From: Jaapia argillacea MUCL 33604
Taxonomy: Eukaryota > Basidiomycota > Agaricomycetes > Jaapiales > Jaapiaceae
Assembly: GCA_000697665.1 (NCBI GenBank)
Contig: KL197710.1
Coordinates: 834,090 to 898,089, forward strand
Length of the DNA: 64,000 bases
Direction: 5' to 3'
Shown: one piece after another, positions 3,527-64,000 of the stretch
Position numbering within the stretch: the stretch's first letter is position 1
Layout: each line of letters starts with the position of its first letter
Notes under the pieces: model-generated
The model's input: only the letters and a program-made list of their open reading frames with translations
The model's database searches: none
Told to the model about the DNA's origin: nothing
Made by a program: the position numbers and the translations under genes

Positions 3527-4692
3527 GGTGGCGTCGTAGCTTCTTCCAAGGACTCAAGGCTTCACAGTGAGTCTTTTCAAGAGGCAAACAGCAGAGGTAT
3601 GGGAGAATCCCTGAAGTGGGTATCTACCGATTTACGGCATTTGCTCCATGCGCTCCTTTACGCACGGGTATGGTGGCATATATGCTCGCACAGCGAGAAA
3701 TGGAATGTTTGAACGTGCGTCGTACAGCCATCAGGAAGGACTCTCGAAATAGACTTGAAAGTTCACGAGAGGGCAGGGAAGCTGCGAGTTCACGTGCCAC
3801 AAGGCATAGCAATGGTTCTTTCGATCTCGTTGACAGCCCAAGCCATATGAGACGTTGGACTTGTAGAACATTCATCAATATCCAGATAGATAAGCAAAGG
3901 AGCAAGGAGCAAATGGGAGAAAGTAAGAGACTGAGGCCTGAGGACAACAACGGACATCGGGAGCGAAACACCGCCACCGCCACAGAACAAATAAAGAAAA
4001 AGAACGCGTCCAGCGTGACAGGCTCTAGACATGGTCTGCGACGTCATTGACAGTCCAAGCCCAGACCAGAGCCGTCATCGACAAAACCTGCTACAAAAAC
4101 CCAGCGTGAAAGAATGGCAATGAGGAGAACCTCCCCTTGCTTTTCATTGTCTTCGTGTACTTGGAATACTGTTTGCCGTCGTCTAAACGCAACCGCTCAA
4201 TCTGAATTTGCCAACTTTGCTTCGGACATTCGCGCCGCACAGGCGTCAAACTTTCAATCCCGAGGCATCAGGAGTCAGTTCATTATTGGATGTCAAGCAT
4301 ATACAAGCATACAACATAGACAAGTCCTCGAAAGCATTGGATAACTACATGATAACTCGGTCGAAGAAGAAGCAATGGATATCAGGATATATCTACAAAC
4401 TCGTAAGTGGGAGGTAAAATCATACTAGGATATACAGCGTTCTCTGATTCGTATGGTGTATTAATCTGAAGGTCAAAATATGGCAAAAGTGTCGCAGGCG
4501 CGGCATTGCGGCCCAATCGCCCCGGTGTGGTGAGGGAGGTAGGGAGGGAGGGGTGCATCGGCGCCGATGTCGACTTGGGCATGATGTGGCCACCCATAGA
4601 TATAACAATGCCCAGGCTTGGAGCATTTTGAAGGGCCTTCCTCTTCAAGCCATCTCCGTCAGCTCCCTCGCACTCCCCTCCAGCACCGACTT
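3527..4692. other. Intergenic stretch, nothing recognised
   Basis: This contains the promoter side of the sphingomyelinase-like gene and several short overlapping open frames on both strands. None shows a domain, a plausible intron chain or a familiar motif. A minus-strand open frame at 4382-4648 is proline-rich and could be an exon of the short ORF upstream, but no good splice pair joins them. Confidence 0.35.
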
Positions 4693-58626: not shown

Positions 58627-60008
58627 TCAGTTACGAGAACTACTCGTCTTCACAGTTCCGCAGAAGGTGCAAGTCCAAAAGTCGTGTGGCATATCTGCTC
58701 CTCCGCACGCAGCGCATGTCCATCCCGATGATGGGCCTGGCTGACTCGGACGAATGCTGTCGCACGCCTCACATCGGAAGGCACCAGGCTCATTCAGCAG
58801 CGTACAAGTCGCGCAAGACCATCCCCCAGATGGATTTTGCGAAACTGGTCGAATTGCGTCACAAGCATCACATCGAGCAGCGTCAGGTTTGTTCGATAAT
58901 GTGCACGCCGGACATGACCATTCTTTCGATGACCCCGAGATCTTGGTGGCCATGACTGAGTTTGATGAGGGATTTGGACGTGGTCTACGTGATGGAGCCC
59001 CACCAGCCTGGGGAGGTCGAAGTGGTTTGGGCGACTTGTCATCGACCACGATTATATCTGAGTCACCATCCGAATCACCTGTCAAATCAATAACTTTGTC
59101 CTCGACGCTGTCTCTTGCGGCCTTGGCGGCTTCTTGTTGAGCTAACAAGCCGTAGCCGCAAGCTTTCTCGTCTCCGGCTCTCCGCTCCGCTGCCTACAAT
59201 ACAGAGAGCCTGAGCTTAACGATGACTGCAAAGATATCATTATAGACGAACGAACCTCAGCAGCAAGCTCCCGTGGTGTCATGTTTCGTCTTGGCGTTGA
59301 AGCTCCTCCAAGTCGACGACCGCCACTCATCAACTCCCCTAACTTCCGCCTCTTCTCCGCAGCCTCCAAAGCTTTCTGTCGAGCCATATGGGGTGGCAAG
59401 TCATGCGATATGCCAGCGCCTAGTCTTGTCCCTTTGGAATAGAAGCCCTCGCCTGAGTAACCTGAGCGCTTGAGGGCGTCGTGTTCATCTTCCAGTCCAG
59501 AGAGGAACTTGTAGAATTTCTCGTCGTGAGGGCCATGAACGTTGTGCGTCAGCTTAGGGTTGGAGGGGAGATAAGCGAGAAGTCAGTAGCACGAGCAAGG
59601 AGATCGTACCTCGTGCAACATGGTGTGAACGATATCCTCGATGTCATAAAACGTGTCAGGCGCCCATGCCGGACGCAACCTAAGGAGTATCTTCTCTCCT
59701 CCGTTTACATCTACCATTGCAAGATATAAGCTCGACAAGCCGCAGGAGGGATAGATCATAGATTCATACTAAGACCTAGAAACACCCAAAGTGCATCGAT
59801 GAGCAAGGACACCACGATGTCAGACAAGAAACATACCAATAAGATTGGGGCTTTCTGGAAAGAACTCAGCGAGAAGAGGCAAGTGCCATGAATGCTTCCT
59901 CATGATGGGCTTCACCAACGATGCGACCTTTTGAAGGAGTGGCAGCGCTTGATCGGCCTTCGGTCGATCTTTAAGGTGCGTGAACGATTGAACGAATATC
60001 TCAGACAT
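58627..60008 (-). CDS. WSS1: WSS1-type DNA-protein crosslink protease
   Basis: WLM metalloprotease (yeast Wss1, related to SPRTN) that degrades proteins crosslinked to DNA and works with SUMO. The start MSEIFVQSFTHLKDRPKADQ opens the WLM domain. The zinc site is LHELTHNVHGPHDEKFYKFL, with HExxH and the third His. A basic linker follows (KRRKLGELMSGGRRLGG), then two hydrophobic-acidic SUMO-binding-like motifs in one stretch, VIDLTGDSD and SDIIVVDD. Three RanBP2-type zinc fingers end the protein: WSCPACTLSNKPDAARCDAC, WSCATCTLLNEPGAFRCEAC and a variant WTCAACGGADMPHDFWTCTF. The last has one extra residue between its cysteine pairs. Introns are short. Stop at 58627-58629. Confidence 0.94.
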
Positions 60009-60860
60009 CGTATGAGGTGTTGAGAGTGTGTTGTGAAGGACAGGGCCCTGCACAGCAGTAGTTTATCGTACATCTGGGTGGCTTATTAAAGGGGGTGACG
60101 CGTGCCACAGACGCGCGACGCGTCCCGTTGCCATTCGGGACTTCACTTTCTGATTTGCCAAACTGATTTTCGTCATACAAAGTTGATTTGTGTTGGTTTG
60201 TGTTGATTGGTGGCTGATTTTGAGTGGGAAAATGCAAATCAACCAATCAGCCGACAAACTGGTTGGCGCTTCGCTGTACTTGTTAACTTTGATTGGGGCG
60301 TTATCCGGCGCGCCCCTTGCTTGCGATCTCTGCTATACTGTGCTGTCCTATCACCGAGAGACTACCTGCTTGATATCTCATCATCGCTGGCCGCTATCTT
60401 GTCTTCGATCGAGTTGGGAAGTCGTCTTCTCCGTTTATGGACGACATTTTGATTTGACGCCATTCAGTCGTCGGTCGCGACGTCCGCCGCTGATCGACAC
60501 TTTGAGTCTGTCCCCTCTGTTCCTGACCTCGGTGCTTGACCACATCTCTCGTGGCCCTTTCGAGACATCGCCATCGTTCGTTCGCACACCTCGTAGCCCC
60601 GCTAGCACCTTTCCATGCTGGTGCCCTCAGGCGGGCATGTGCTCATCAATCTCGGACCTGCCTTATGCCAGTCTGGGCACTCGATCCTTCATGTTTCATA
60701 CCCTCCACACATTAATCTCTCATTTTGCACGGAATATATATTTTTAATCCTCCTTTTGCCCCGAATCTTGATCCCAAACTTGCAAAATATGAGATTTGAC
60801 TTTGGCAATTGCAAGCGAAGCCGCCCTCCTTCTCGTCTAAACCTGCCAACCTATCCCTTC
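60009..60860. other. Upstream region between WSS1 and the transposon-like gene
   Basis: Contains the WSS1 promoter and the 5' flank of the transposon-like gene. Near 60208 and 60241 there are CCAAT-type boxes in opposite orientation (GATTGG and CCAATCAG), forming an imperfect inverted repeat. A 186-codon frame (60190-60747) has no domain and is not called. The left end of the element could not be located. Confidence 0.4.
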
Positions 60861-63642
60861 ATGTGGAACTGGCTCTCTGGCCTCTTCACCGGACACTCGG
60901 CGAAAAATGCCGCCGATTCCAGAGGCAGTCACCATCAACATACCCATCCCCGTAGGCACGAAGAGGATCGGCGAGCGTATGGCAAAGATTCTGGTCGATA
61001 CGAGGATTATCCACATTATGAGGAGGATTTTGACTATGACCGCTGTCGACGCAGTGACGAATACCGCTACAGACGGCCACGACGCGATTATAATGATCGC
61101 AGAGAATGCTGCCGCTATTACTCAAGGCCACGGGAAGATAGTTATAGCGAAGACGAAGGTAAGGTTTTCGTCACTTATCGTCACTTCGCCTCATCTTTTT
61201 GTACTTTCATGCAGACTACCAGGATCCCCAACGACCCCCACTTCGGGAAGACCGTCTCTCGCAACGGGACCCTCGTCGTACCAGTCACCAGGATCATGAT
61301 CACCATCCTCGAAGGTCTCGTCGAGGATCACATAGCCCAGCCCCTATTGCACGCACCACCGACGATCACACAACAGTGCCTGCCTCCGAATATCCCTCTT
61401 CAAGTCAGTATCAATGGCCGAATGGTGACATGAAGTTTGAATGTACGGTAAAAGAGGAGCCGGCAGGGTGGAATGACGAGGGTTGGGCCTTTTGGTCGTC
61501 GGGCGCACGTCGCAATTTGGACATTATCCCTCCCGATGCGAACAGTGTCAACAAGCGAATTTGCCGTGGTGTCTGGAGATGTGGATGTCGGAATCAGGAC
61601 GAGTATTGCCGTTTCGTTTGGCCAAAGACAAACATAAATGCCTTCAAGAAGCAAGCCAAGGAGATTTGTCCCATTTGCCATGAGACCCTCACTCTCATCC
61701 CTTGCGACGCATTCATGATTGCCTACGATTATGTTCGTCCCGATGGTGTCCGTCGTCTAGTCCGCCACCACCAGGGCATCCACAAACATCCAAAGCCACC
61801 AACAAAGACACTCTCCGCTGCGGAACGCGAAGCCCTCGATCATGCCGTACAACACAACCCCCAGGCGACTGCGTTACAGCATCGAGTAGGACCTGAACGG
61901 ACTCAAGTCCCCATCACCTCGATCAATCCAATACTTTCAGATCCTCGGAAGGCTCGTTACGAAGTGGACAAGAGCAAAGTCCGAGTCGGTCTATCGGATG
62001 CTCCATCGTCAGACAACAAACTATCTGTAACGAAGTTGATCGAGTTGCTCAAGAGTGTGAGCACGATCTCGGAGATACCTTGGGTGGTGGAGTCAGATAT
62101 TTTCAAGTGATCATATGTATCAATGCAGACTCCGTTCATGCGGGAAGAGCTCCTGGCCGACGCCGTGTCATCATGGGGACAAGAGCATACTTCGACAGAA
62201 ACATCTCGCCATGGAATCATCACGGATGGTAGCCATGACTTCTTCATGGACGGTGTTCTCCTTTCGTCCTTTGTCTACTCTACCATCCTTCTTCGCTGGG
62301 TTCCGGTTCTCTATACATGGATTGGGAACCTTGATGCCGAGCACCACATACCACATTTCTTACTCCTAATTACTGCGATCGCAGGCACGGTGGCTCCAGG
62401 AATTGAAGTCGGAGATTATATTCTTAGTAATGTGTGTCTCTCGCCCTGTACCATGACGGCAAACCTTATTCAGTTCGACAGATACTGAATTACTCCCAAG
62501 CCCAACGAAAGGGTTTCGTTGAAGCGTTCGTCAACTTCATGGTCTCACGAATTCCGGGATGGGCAAGCCTCAACAAGGATGCCCAAACTGCGCAGAGGAA
62601 GAGCATTTACAACCGAGCTGAGCAACTCATCAAAGGTTGCGAAGTCCCTGGAAGTGCTCTCTTATGCGAATCAAGGAACTCATCAAAGAAAGTTGCCTGC
62701 CGCTCTTCACCTTTCTCATTAGTGTCCTCGAAGGTCACAACACCAAACCCGAACAGTTTTTACAGGCTGCCGATCAAATCCATACTGGTTTCCCTGAGGT
62801 TAAAGGATGGCTTTCTTGGTGGCTCAATCCCTTGAATGGGGCCATGATATTCCCCGCCATTCATTCGATGCCAGCAGAACTTTGCTCACGTCTTCCTGAT
62901 TCAACCAACAGAGGAGAATCAAACCACTGGCTCTTGTACTGAGCATGTGGCCAGAAGCACTCACTATTGGAGGGCATTCGCCGTCTTTTTCTCTATGTTC
63001 AGGAAATCGAGACATTATACAAGAATGTTCGCAGTGAGTTCCATTTGCCATCTCTGTTCTCATATGAAACGAATGAAATATTTGCTACTAGATGGTGCTG
63101 TCCAACGTAAAGCAAGAGACGATAAACTTCCTGCTGTCCGAGGAATCCGCTGGCATCCCAACGACGGCCGTGCTCCCGACACTCGGACACTCCTCACTCT
63201 TGCAGATGAGGCTGAAGCAAAGTTGGCGCAGGGGACGAGCTCAACCTCTATTGAAGCCCGTCTCTCCGCATTGTCCGTGAAGATCTCTGGTACCACAGAA
63301 AAATCTCCCGACGATGACTTTCCACCCAAACCAGTGATGTTGAAGGGGAAAGGAAAGGGGAAAGGAAAAACCTCAGGAAAATTGAAAGTTACGAAGGCTG
63401 CTAGAAAGCAGAGCGGAGTCGCCTCATCCTCCACCGTACAGCTCCCGCCGATACTTCCTTCTGCTATTGGGTTGCAATCCTACACTTGGAGTCGCAACTC
63501 ATGTTTCATCGATTCAAGCCTCGAACTTCTCTATTGGGGCTTTTGTATGCTTGACTCAACATGCCGGCAGGGATTGATAGACTCAGCTCGCCAACAGGCT
63601 CCTCTCTCAGGTCTAAATGGAGTATTACGACACCTGGAGTGA
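60861..63642 (+). pseudogene. Decayed transposon-like gene: GCM1/WRKY zinc finger + DDE-like core + USP-like start
   Basis: The gene begins MWNWLSGLFTGHSAKN, then an Arg/Asp/His-rich segment and a good intron (gtaagg...catgcag, ending near 61212). A zinc-binding domain of the GCM1/WRKY superfamily follows: RICRGVWRCGCRNQDEYC, then ICPICHETLTLIPCDA and HHQGIHKHPKPP. Beyond an in-frame TGA (62108) lies a transposase-like core: HGIITDGSHDFF (first Asp region), ILNYSQAQRKGFVEAF, where relatives I recall have Asp in place of Asn, and FPEVKGWLSWWLNPLNGAMI. DSTNRGESNHWLLY ends at another in-frame TGA (62940). The tail has NDGRAPDTRTLL, a Lys/Gly tract and SYTWSRNSCFIDSSLELLYW, resembling the catalytic-Cys box of ubiquitin-specific proteases. 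Frame changes near 62490 and 62640 confirm decay. Class is assigned from motif memory, not a search. Confidence 0.75.
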
Positions 63643-63702: not shown

Positions 63703-64000
63703 GCAGCCACCAGATGCTGTAGTGGAATTGCAATTATGCCAGCAAATGGCTAGGAGTGTATTGCAACAAACCCTAGCAAATCTATTGCAATAAGTCCCAG
63801 GTCCACAGGCAGCAGCATAGCTTGGCCAGCTAGGACCTGCTGGGACCTACTGGGACCATGTGGACCATGTGGACCTGATTCAGGGGATGTCCATATATAG
63901 CTAGCTACCTAAAATGGTAAATAGCTGAAAAAGCGGAATAAAAGAGTGGAATAAATCACTAAAAATCAGGAACAATCAGAATAAATTGCACTAGGGTAGG
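63703..64000. mobile_element. CpG-free repeat at the right edge, LTR-like
   Basis: From about 63703 to 63933 there is no CpG at all, an abrupt change from the sequence before it. It contains a TATA-like CCATATATAGCTAGC (near 63891), short degenerate repeats of GGACC(T/A) (63832-63875) and an A-rich stretch. These resemble a basidiomycete LTR or solo LTR entering from the right. No end or target duplication is visible inside the window. Confidence 0.5.

Follow-up and report, generated by a model that had tools for sequence, protein, structure and literature searches.

The feature at 60861..63642 of the window (the whole 64,000-nucleotide stretch of Jaapia argillacea contig KL197710.1 that was analysed) probably represents the 5' half of a MuDRF-type DNA transposon that has decayed, MuDRF being a Mutator branch with a GCM-bearing transposase. 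Comparison with two other copies in the same genome, C71 and C4 (named after their contigs), very strongly suggests that the element carries one multi-exon gene, predicted from the genomic sequence, which encodes in this order a GCM domain, a D-D-E core, a USP-like cysteine peptidase, a PHD finger and a C-terminal region. The copy in the window is a dead, interrupted pseudogene. The genome searched was that of Jaapia argillacea (43.7 Mb, 95 contigs), and the architecture is known from this one genome.

Layout and decay of the window copy

All parts of the window copy lie on the + strand. The 5' terminus of the transposon (GGGACTTCACTTTCTGATTTGCC...) occupies 60137..60236, and homology to C71 starts at 60136. 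The first coding exon (60861..61158) encodes an Arg/His/Asp-rich stretch beginning with MWNWLSG; the motif MWNWLSGLF starts with the ATG at 60861, and a GTAAGG donor is found at 61159. By eye, the counterpart of this exon in C4 has a similar MW-S-L start. The GCM DNA-binding domain (61412..61825, Pfam PF03615) contains the motifs RICRGVWRCGC (61556-61588) and HHQGIHKHPKPP (61766-61801). The D-D-E core is divided between two exons. The end of exon 2 (62216..62431) holds the first Asp region (IITDG), with the motif IITDGSHDFF at 62216-62245, and is kept in C4 and C71. The following exon (62482..63033) holds the second Asp region, the C-x2-H region, the W and the Glu, and includes the motifs ILNYSQAQRKGF (62482-62517) and GWLSWWL (62805-62825); the Glu of the window copy is that of RGES, within 62904-62939. 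A linker and the N-terminal part of the USP-like peptidase follow at 63092..63639, with the Cys box NSCFIDSSLELLYW at 63496-63537. Introns at 61159-61214, 62432-62481 and 63034-63091 were placed by eye from GT-AG borders and homology.

The motifs quoted in the earlier note were all found on this strand and in the order given, from 60861 to 63537. Its description of a conserved frame order is incorrect for the window copy: apart from the introns between the exons, in-frame TGA codons are present at 62108, just upstream of the IITDG region, and at 62940, and near 62647 the sequence is one base short compared with C71, which shifts the frame. In addition, the codon of the second catalytic Asp at 62488 reads AAT (Asn) in the window copy vs GAT (Asp) in C71. 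Another TGA, at 63640 in the peptidase, is common to the window copy and C71 (L005:7185). It may predate the separation of the two copies, or both may derive from an already damaged source.

The peptidase is interrupted by the end of a different, repeated transposable element (63706..64000, +). Homology between the window copy and C71 ends at 63708, where the repeated element starts, and 40 of the 42 matches of the window query (all except the window itself and C71) start at query position 3702 or later, with identities of 75-97%. Several of these matches form inverted pairs with a spacing of about 3 kb, such as C11:20290 and C11:23541. The ends of this second element are about 295 bp long and recur as inverted pairs.

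In the exon stretches compared, the window copy and C71 differ at 44/638, 56/638 and 80/636 sites at codon positions 1, 2 and 3, respectively, the middle exon being represented by its first 149 bases only and the third exon pair being cut one base unevenly. Transitions account for 145 of the 180 differences. These patterns indicate that the window copy was once constrained as a protein-coding sequence and has since decayed.

The transposon lies just upstream of a Wss1-like gene (window 58630-60008, - strand; Pfam WLM 101.6 bits in the spliced piece, RanBP zinc fingers), the ATG of which (60008) is 129 bp from the transposon 5' end.

Relatives in the genome and element ends

A query with the GCM exon matches at least three places in the genome: the window, C71 and C4. 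C71 is 90% identical to the window copy at the DNA level over 3.57 kb, while C4 shares 47% protein identity with it in the GCM exon. In the peptidase part, the window copy is 85% identical to C71 and 42-45% identical to C4 over two pieces.

The C4 element spans 7296 bp between terminal inverted repeats (TIRs). Their alignment score is 37, against a best of 24 among 724 controls, and the element is flanked on both sides by CAGTAAAGTG(G), a target duplication of 10-11 bp. A fuller copy with TIRs and a duplication in the range of 8-11 bp, which the earlier note had proposed looking for, exists in C4. From the GCM exon onward, the C4 gene has six short introns and encodes 1662 residues with one internal TGA; this protein was joined by eye and does not include the exon(s) before the GCM exon. 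In C71, four introns, placed by eye, are found at positions matching the first four of C4 and give 1271 codons with six internal stops, and the contig stops before any 3' terminus. None of the copies seen is intact, with stops in all three GCM-bearing copies.

Both C4 and C71 contain the same exon chain: GCM, D-D-E core with C-x2-H, USP-like peptidase and PHD finger. The D-D-E core and the peptidase are separated by a short intron (58-59 nt) and there is no intergenic space up to the PHD finger. In C4 the whole D-D-E/peptidase/PHD chain lies inside the TIRs. The fusion of a transposase with a peptidase, originally proposed from the window, is thus borne out by C4 and C71, but not by the window copy itself, which is dead and interrupted.

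A search with the PHD and C-terminal part of C4 uncovered an extra locus, C2:916811-917921, which lies on the same strand as the window copy, 19 kb downstream of it; weak matches were also obtained on C1 (E 0.013) and at C4:352750 (E 0.15). The C2 piece is 88% identical to the 3' part of C71 over 1320 columns. TTGCCATT, the sequence just before the 5' end of the window copy, recurs after terminus-like sequence that ends near C2:919241. It is the probable target-site duplication of the window copy: the match is exact over 8 bp, and an 8-mer was shared by 22 of 20000 random pairs. The TIR alignment of window and C2, taken alone, scores 25, which is not above 56 controls (best 26). The C2 piece probably represents the rest of the window copy, from which nested elements have separated it. 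The searched part of the interval between the halves did not yield about 1.16 kb of the peptidase region. Within this interval, C2:905406-916600 contains nested frames resembling non-LTR retrotransposons, with endonuclease, reverse transcriptase and RNase H recognised by eye. The two duplications, 8 bp in window/C2 and 10-11 bp in C4, are compatible with a 9-bp duplication plus mutation or chance matches.

By eye, subterminal CTGATTTG-like repeats are visible at the window 5' end. The element ends in general look rich in short repeats, with CTGATTTG/TTGATTTG at window 60137-60280 and GACTTG in C4. Such repeats are possible candidate binding sites for the GCM domain.

Single-protein searches of this genome with the peptidase and the DDE core, and a GCM family scan, yielded no further copies; the other GCM match in the genome scan, on C1, had 15.9 bits and was below the cut-off. 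No relatives were found in viral_contigs with the peptidase and GCM-DDE queries, or in genome_contigs (bacteria and archaea) with the GCM-DDE query.

GCM domain and D-D-E core

Animal GCM proteins are developmental regulators. In the window, the Pfam GCM profile scores 27.3 bits (cut-off 25), and on the cut-out domains of C4 and C71 it scores 32.1 and 25.8 bits. The C4 protein also matches mouse GCM1 (1odh) with an E-value of 5.8e-05. What had been described as a GCM1/WRKY-type finger is a GCM-type zinc domain, as claimed, but it matches GCM over nearly the whole profile and is not merely a WRKY-GCM1 finger. Pfam GCM was not listed for the whole-length C4 and C71 proteins, and in the genome scan the window locus alone was above the cut-off, the C4 and C71 loci being missed. 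Both omissions are attributed to search filters.

The D-D-E residues common to C4 and C71 are Asp270, Asp343 and Glu486 (A2 positions, C4). C393-x2-H396 and W453/W454 of C4, which are part of GCWIH and SWWL, are kept in C71 as well. The D-D-E spacings in C4 are 73 and 143, compared with 69 and 136 in Muta1. MULE transposases are characterised by a CH motif and a W between the second Asp and the Glu (excerpts of PMC5225508). Both features are present at this position in C4 and C71, and C4 also possesses the terminal inverted repeats of Mutator elements. The DDE-transposase-like core recognised in the window is supported by its relatives.

Pfam MULE gave no match in the window, C4 or C71, and the genome's three loci with a Pfam MULE match lie elsewhere than this element. 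In hhalign, the D-D-E part was aligned with two of these three MULEs with a score that 11 of 200 shuffles equalled, and the alignment was not at the catalytic residues. The lack of direct similarity to MULEs may be expected, because the MuDRF branch was linked to MuDR after four rounds of PSI-BLAST (excerpts of PMC3164196). Of the profile searches proposed earlier, the one for GCM exceeded its Pfam cut-off in the window and in the cut-out domains, and those for MULE and UCH returned no Pfam match. An assignment to the KDZ transposons (Kyakuja, Dileera, Zisupton) was weighed and set aside, as the GCM domain and the CWIH motif fit Mutator better.

USP-like peptidase

Between C4 and C71 the peptidase is 35% identical over approximately 340 residues. 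The residues kept include N8, S9, C10, H286, F287, Y298, Y300, D301 and D302, and a C-x4-C pair is kept between N-S-C and the His-box region. USPs have a Cys box followed by Y-x-L-x-G ... H-[YF] ... Y-x-[YF]-D-D, with the catalytic residues in the order Cys-His-Asp. The Cys box reads NSCYVDASLEL in C4 and NSCFINSSLEL in C71. These two copies also supply the His box and Asp-Asp that are absent from the interrupted window copy: YKLAGRVLY...GHF...YIYDD in C4 and YTLAGRVLY...NHF...YRYDD in C71.

When the C4/C71 alignment was compared by hhalign with the Cys boxes of three USPs of the same genome, none of 400 column shuffles reached the score. The likeness of the Cys box to that of USPs, on which the peptidase was first proposed, is consequently beyond chance. 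The His box was aligned in register with four USPs of the same genome, and 2 of 400 shuffles scored as high; an earlier run, trimmed differently, produced the same alignment. A profile HMM of four USPs of the same genome did not separate the His half from shuffles, with 2.1 bits for C4 (71 of 5000 shuffles as high) and -0.7 bits for C71 (1339 of 5000). Pfam UCH/USP had no match at E-values up to 10 in the window, C4 or C71, and for this reason the domain is called USP-like and is not filed as a USP. A phmmer search against the PDB found no peptidase.

AlphaFold was run on the His-half exon only and gave models of very low confidence, with a mean pLDDT of 31 for the exon alone and 34 with one homologue. 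The second of these low-confidence models was compared by Foldseek with 350,542 chains. USP entries took places 1, 2, 7, 9 and 17 among the best 50 of 243 matches, with all E-values at 0.94 or worse and TM-scores of the USP rows not exceeding 0.21. The first row is a chain from an entry titled STAT2-USP18-ISG15 complex, in which USP18 is named by the title alone. These rows weakly favour a USP-type fold for the modelled exon.

A true USP-type fold is quite probable, and the peptidase is likely to be a USP. Other classes of cysteine protease were rejected on the order of their catalytic residues. Ulp1 has the order His-Asp-Cys vs Cys-His-Asp here, and the OTU class was discarded on the same grounds. 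The VTD class was also rejected by catalytic order, as VTD proteases have Asp-x-His (excerpts of PMC9741609).

PHD finger and C-terminal region

The PHD finger and the C-terminal region lie outside the window. Pfam PHD (cut-off 24) gives 30.3 bits for the 3' half on C2 and is just below the cut-off in C4 (23.7 bits) and C71 (22.0 bits). Differences between C2 and C71 at codon positions 1, 2 and 3 number 7/78, 4/77 and 15/78 in the PHD exon and 12/162, 10/163 and 29/162 in the C-terminal exon, so that third positions diverge most in both. The C-terminal region has no Pfam match; its end is basic in both C4 and the C2 half.

Proposed function and alternative explanations

In the proposed mechanism, the GCM domain would bind the repeat-rich element ends, and the D-D-E core would cut and paste the element, generating duplications of 8-11 bp. 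The PHD finger would read histone marks on donor or target chromatin. The peptidase would free the transposase itself of ubiquitin or a ubiquitin-like modifier and thereby slow its degradation; alternatively, it would act in this way on nearby histones. Removal of ubiquitin by the peptidase during transposition is plausible, if somewhat short of probable. The architecture suggests that such transposons may protect themselves against the cell's ubiquitin system or interfere with it. The full proposal is more tentative: a lineage of basidiomycete GCM-type Mutator transposons would combine in its transposase a functional deubiquitinase of the USP class with a reader of histone marks, would deubiquitinate itself or histones while transposing, and would provide the first cut-and-paste transposase with its own USP-type enzyme.

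A different target is the alternative that survives best, although it is unlikely. The peptidase could have another ubiquitin-like protein (SUMO, NEDD8) as its substrate instead of ubiquitin, or it could be a processing protease similar to the plant Ulp1 domains. Such domains recur in plant MULEs and CACTAs (excerpts of PMC2528002), and the top Foldseek row is a chain of an entry whose title names ISG15, a ubiquitin-like protein. The Cys-His-Asp order and the USP-like boxes speak against this explanation. It is slightly less probable still that the domain has lost its catalytic activity and acts as a module for binding ubiquitin or proteins. Its sequence has diverged far from USPs, and both copies with the whole domain sit in genes with stops, but the Cys, the His and the Asp-Asp were kept despite an identity of 35%.

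The remaining alternatives concern the gene and not the activity of the peptidase. That a transposase and an unrelated downstream protein were wrongly joined from two neighbouring genes is very improbable. Being interrupted and frameshifted, the window copy cannot demonstrate a fusion by itself, and in C4 and C71 the exons were joined by eye from genomic sequence alone. However, in both C4 and C71 the D-D-E core leads through an intron of 58-59 nt into the peptidase and then the PHD finger with no intergenic space, and all parts are within the C4 TIRs; a peptidase belonging to a separate downstream gene, the outcome named in the earlier note as speaking against a fusion, is contradicted by this exon chain. 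Finally, a domesticated gene serving the host would fit the low copy number (at least three places match the GCM exon query), but the TIRs and target duplication of C4, the stops that all three GCM-bearing copies contain and the insertion nested in the window copy make this hardly credible. A decayed transposon encoding a transposase fused to a USP-like peptidase is the preferred explanation.

Comparison with known systems

The peptidase shares with USPs (peptidase family C19) the Cys box, the His-box region, a cysteine pair before the His box and the order Cys-His-Asp. It differs in that it is undetected by Pfam UCH, closes its Cys box with Glu where USPs usually have Gln, and is part of a transposase.

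Helitrons and Helentrons encode VTD and OTU deubiquitinase domains, which the authors suggest may protect transposition proteins from degradation (excerpts of PMC9741609). As here, a transposon protein carries a deubiquitinase-type cysteine protease, but these are rolling-circle elements and their proteases are VTD (with Asp-x-His) and OTU instead of USP-like (same source). Ulp1 domains are recurrent in plant MULEs and CACTAs, and the plant MULEs resemble the present element in combining a Mutator-type element with a protease domain for ubiquitin-like proteins. Ulp1 is not of the USP type, though, the Ulp1 of KI-MULE is in reverse orientation to the transposase, and the excerpted text mentions no GCM domain (PMC2528002). 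Rehavkus is related to MULEs, has a 9-bp duplication and bears a PHD finger in its transposase; it is found in arthropods and annelids, and the main text of the paper does not contain "gcm" or "protease" (PMC6446971).

In the literature, none of the titles and beginnings of abstracts among the matches listed describes a GCM or Mutator transposase with a USP-like domain, and an earlier description is possible. The terms protease, peptidase, GCM, PHD, ubiquitin and cysteine do not occur in the main text of PMC12730594. For the name MuDRF, no further relevant paper beyond PMC3164196 was found among the matches listed.

Unrelated transposons took up proteases of the ubiquitin system, namely Ulp1 (PMC2528002, in part) and VTD/OTU (PMC9741609, in part). 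This repeated uptake is a hint that transposition is held in check by ubiquitin or SUMO pathways of the host. With a USP-like enzyme joined in one protein to DNA-binding and DNA-cutting domains and a PHD finger, this idea would become testable.

Among the closest known systems is MuDRF, described in 2011 with GCM and DDE in one protein and 9-bp duplications, in Puccinia striiformis, Laccaria, Schizophyllum, Coprinopsis and Naegleria (excerpts of PMC3164196). The earlier note had stated that GCM1/WRKY zinc fingers are known in Mutator-like transposases. The likeness consists of a GCM DNA-binding domain and a DDE transposase in one protein and of Mutator-like target duplications. The excerpts name only GCM and DDE, with 9 bp, whereas here a USP-like peptidase, a PHD finger and a C-terminal region are also present and the duplications are 8 bp (window/C2) and 10-11 bp (C4). 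The peptidase and PHD parts appear to be new for transposases with GCM and DDE, and they extend the known architecture of GCM-bearing transposons.
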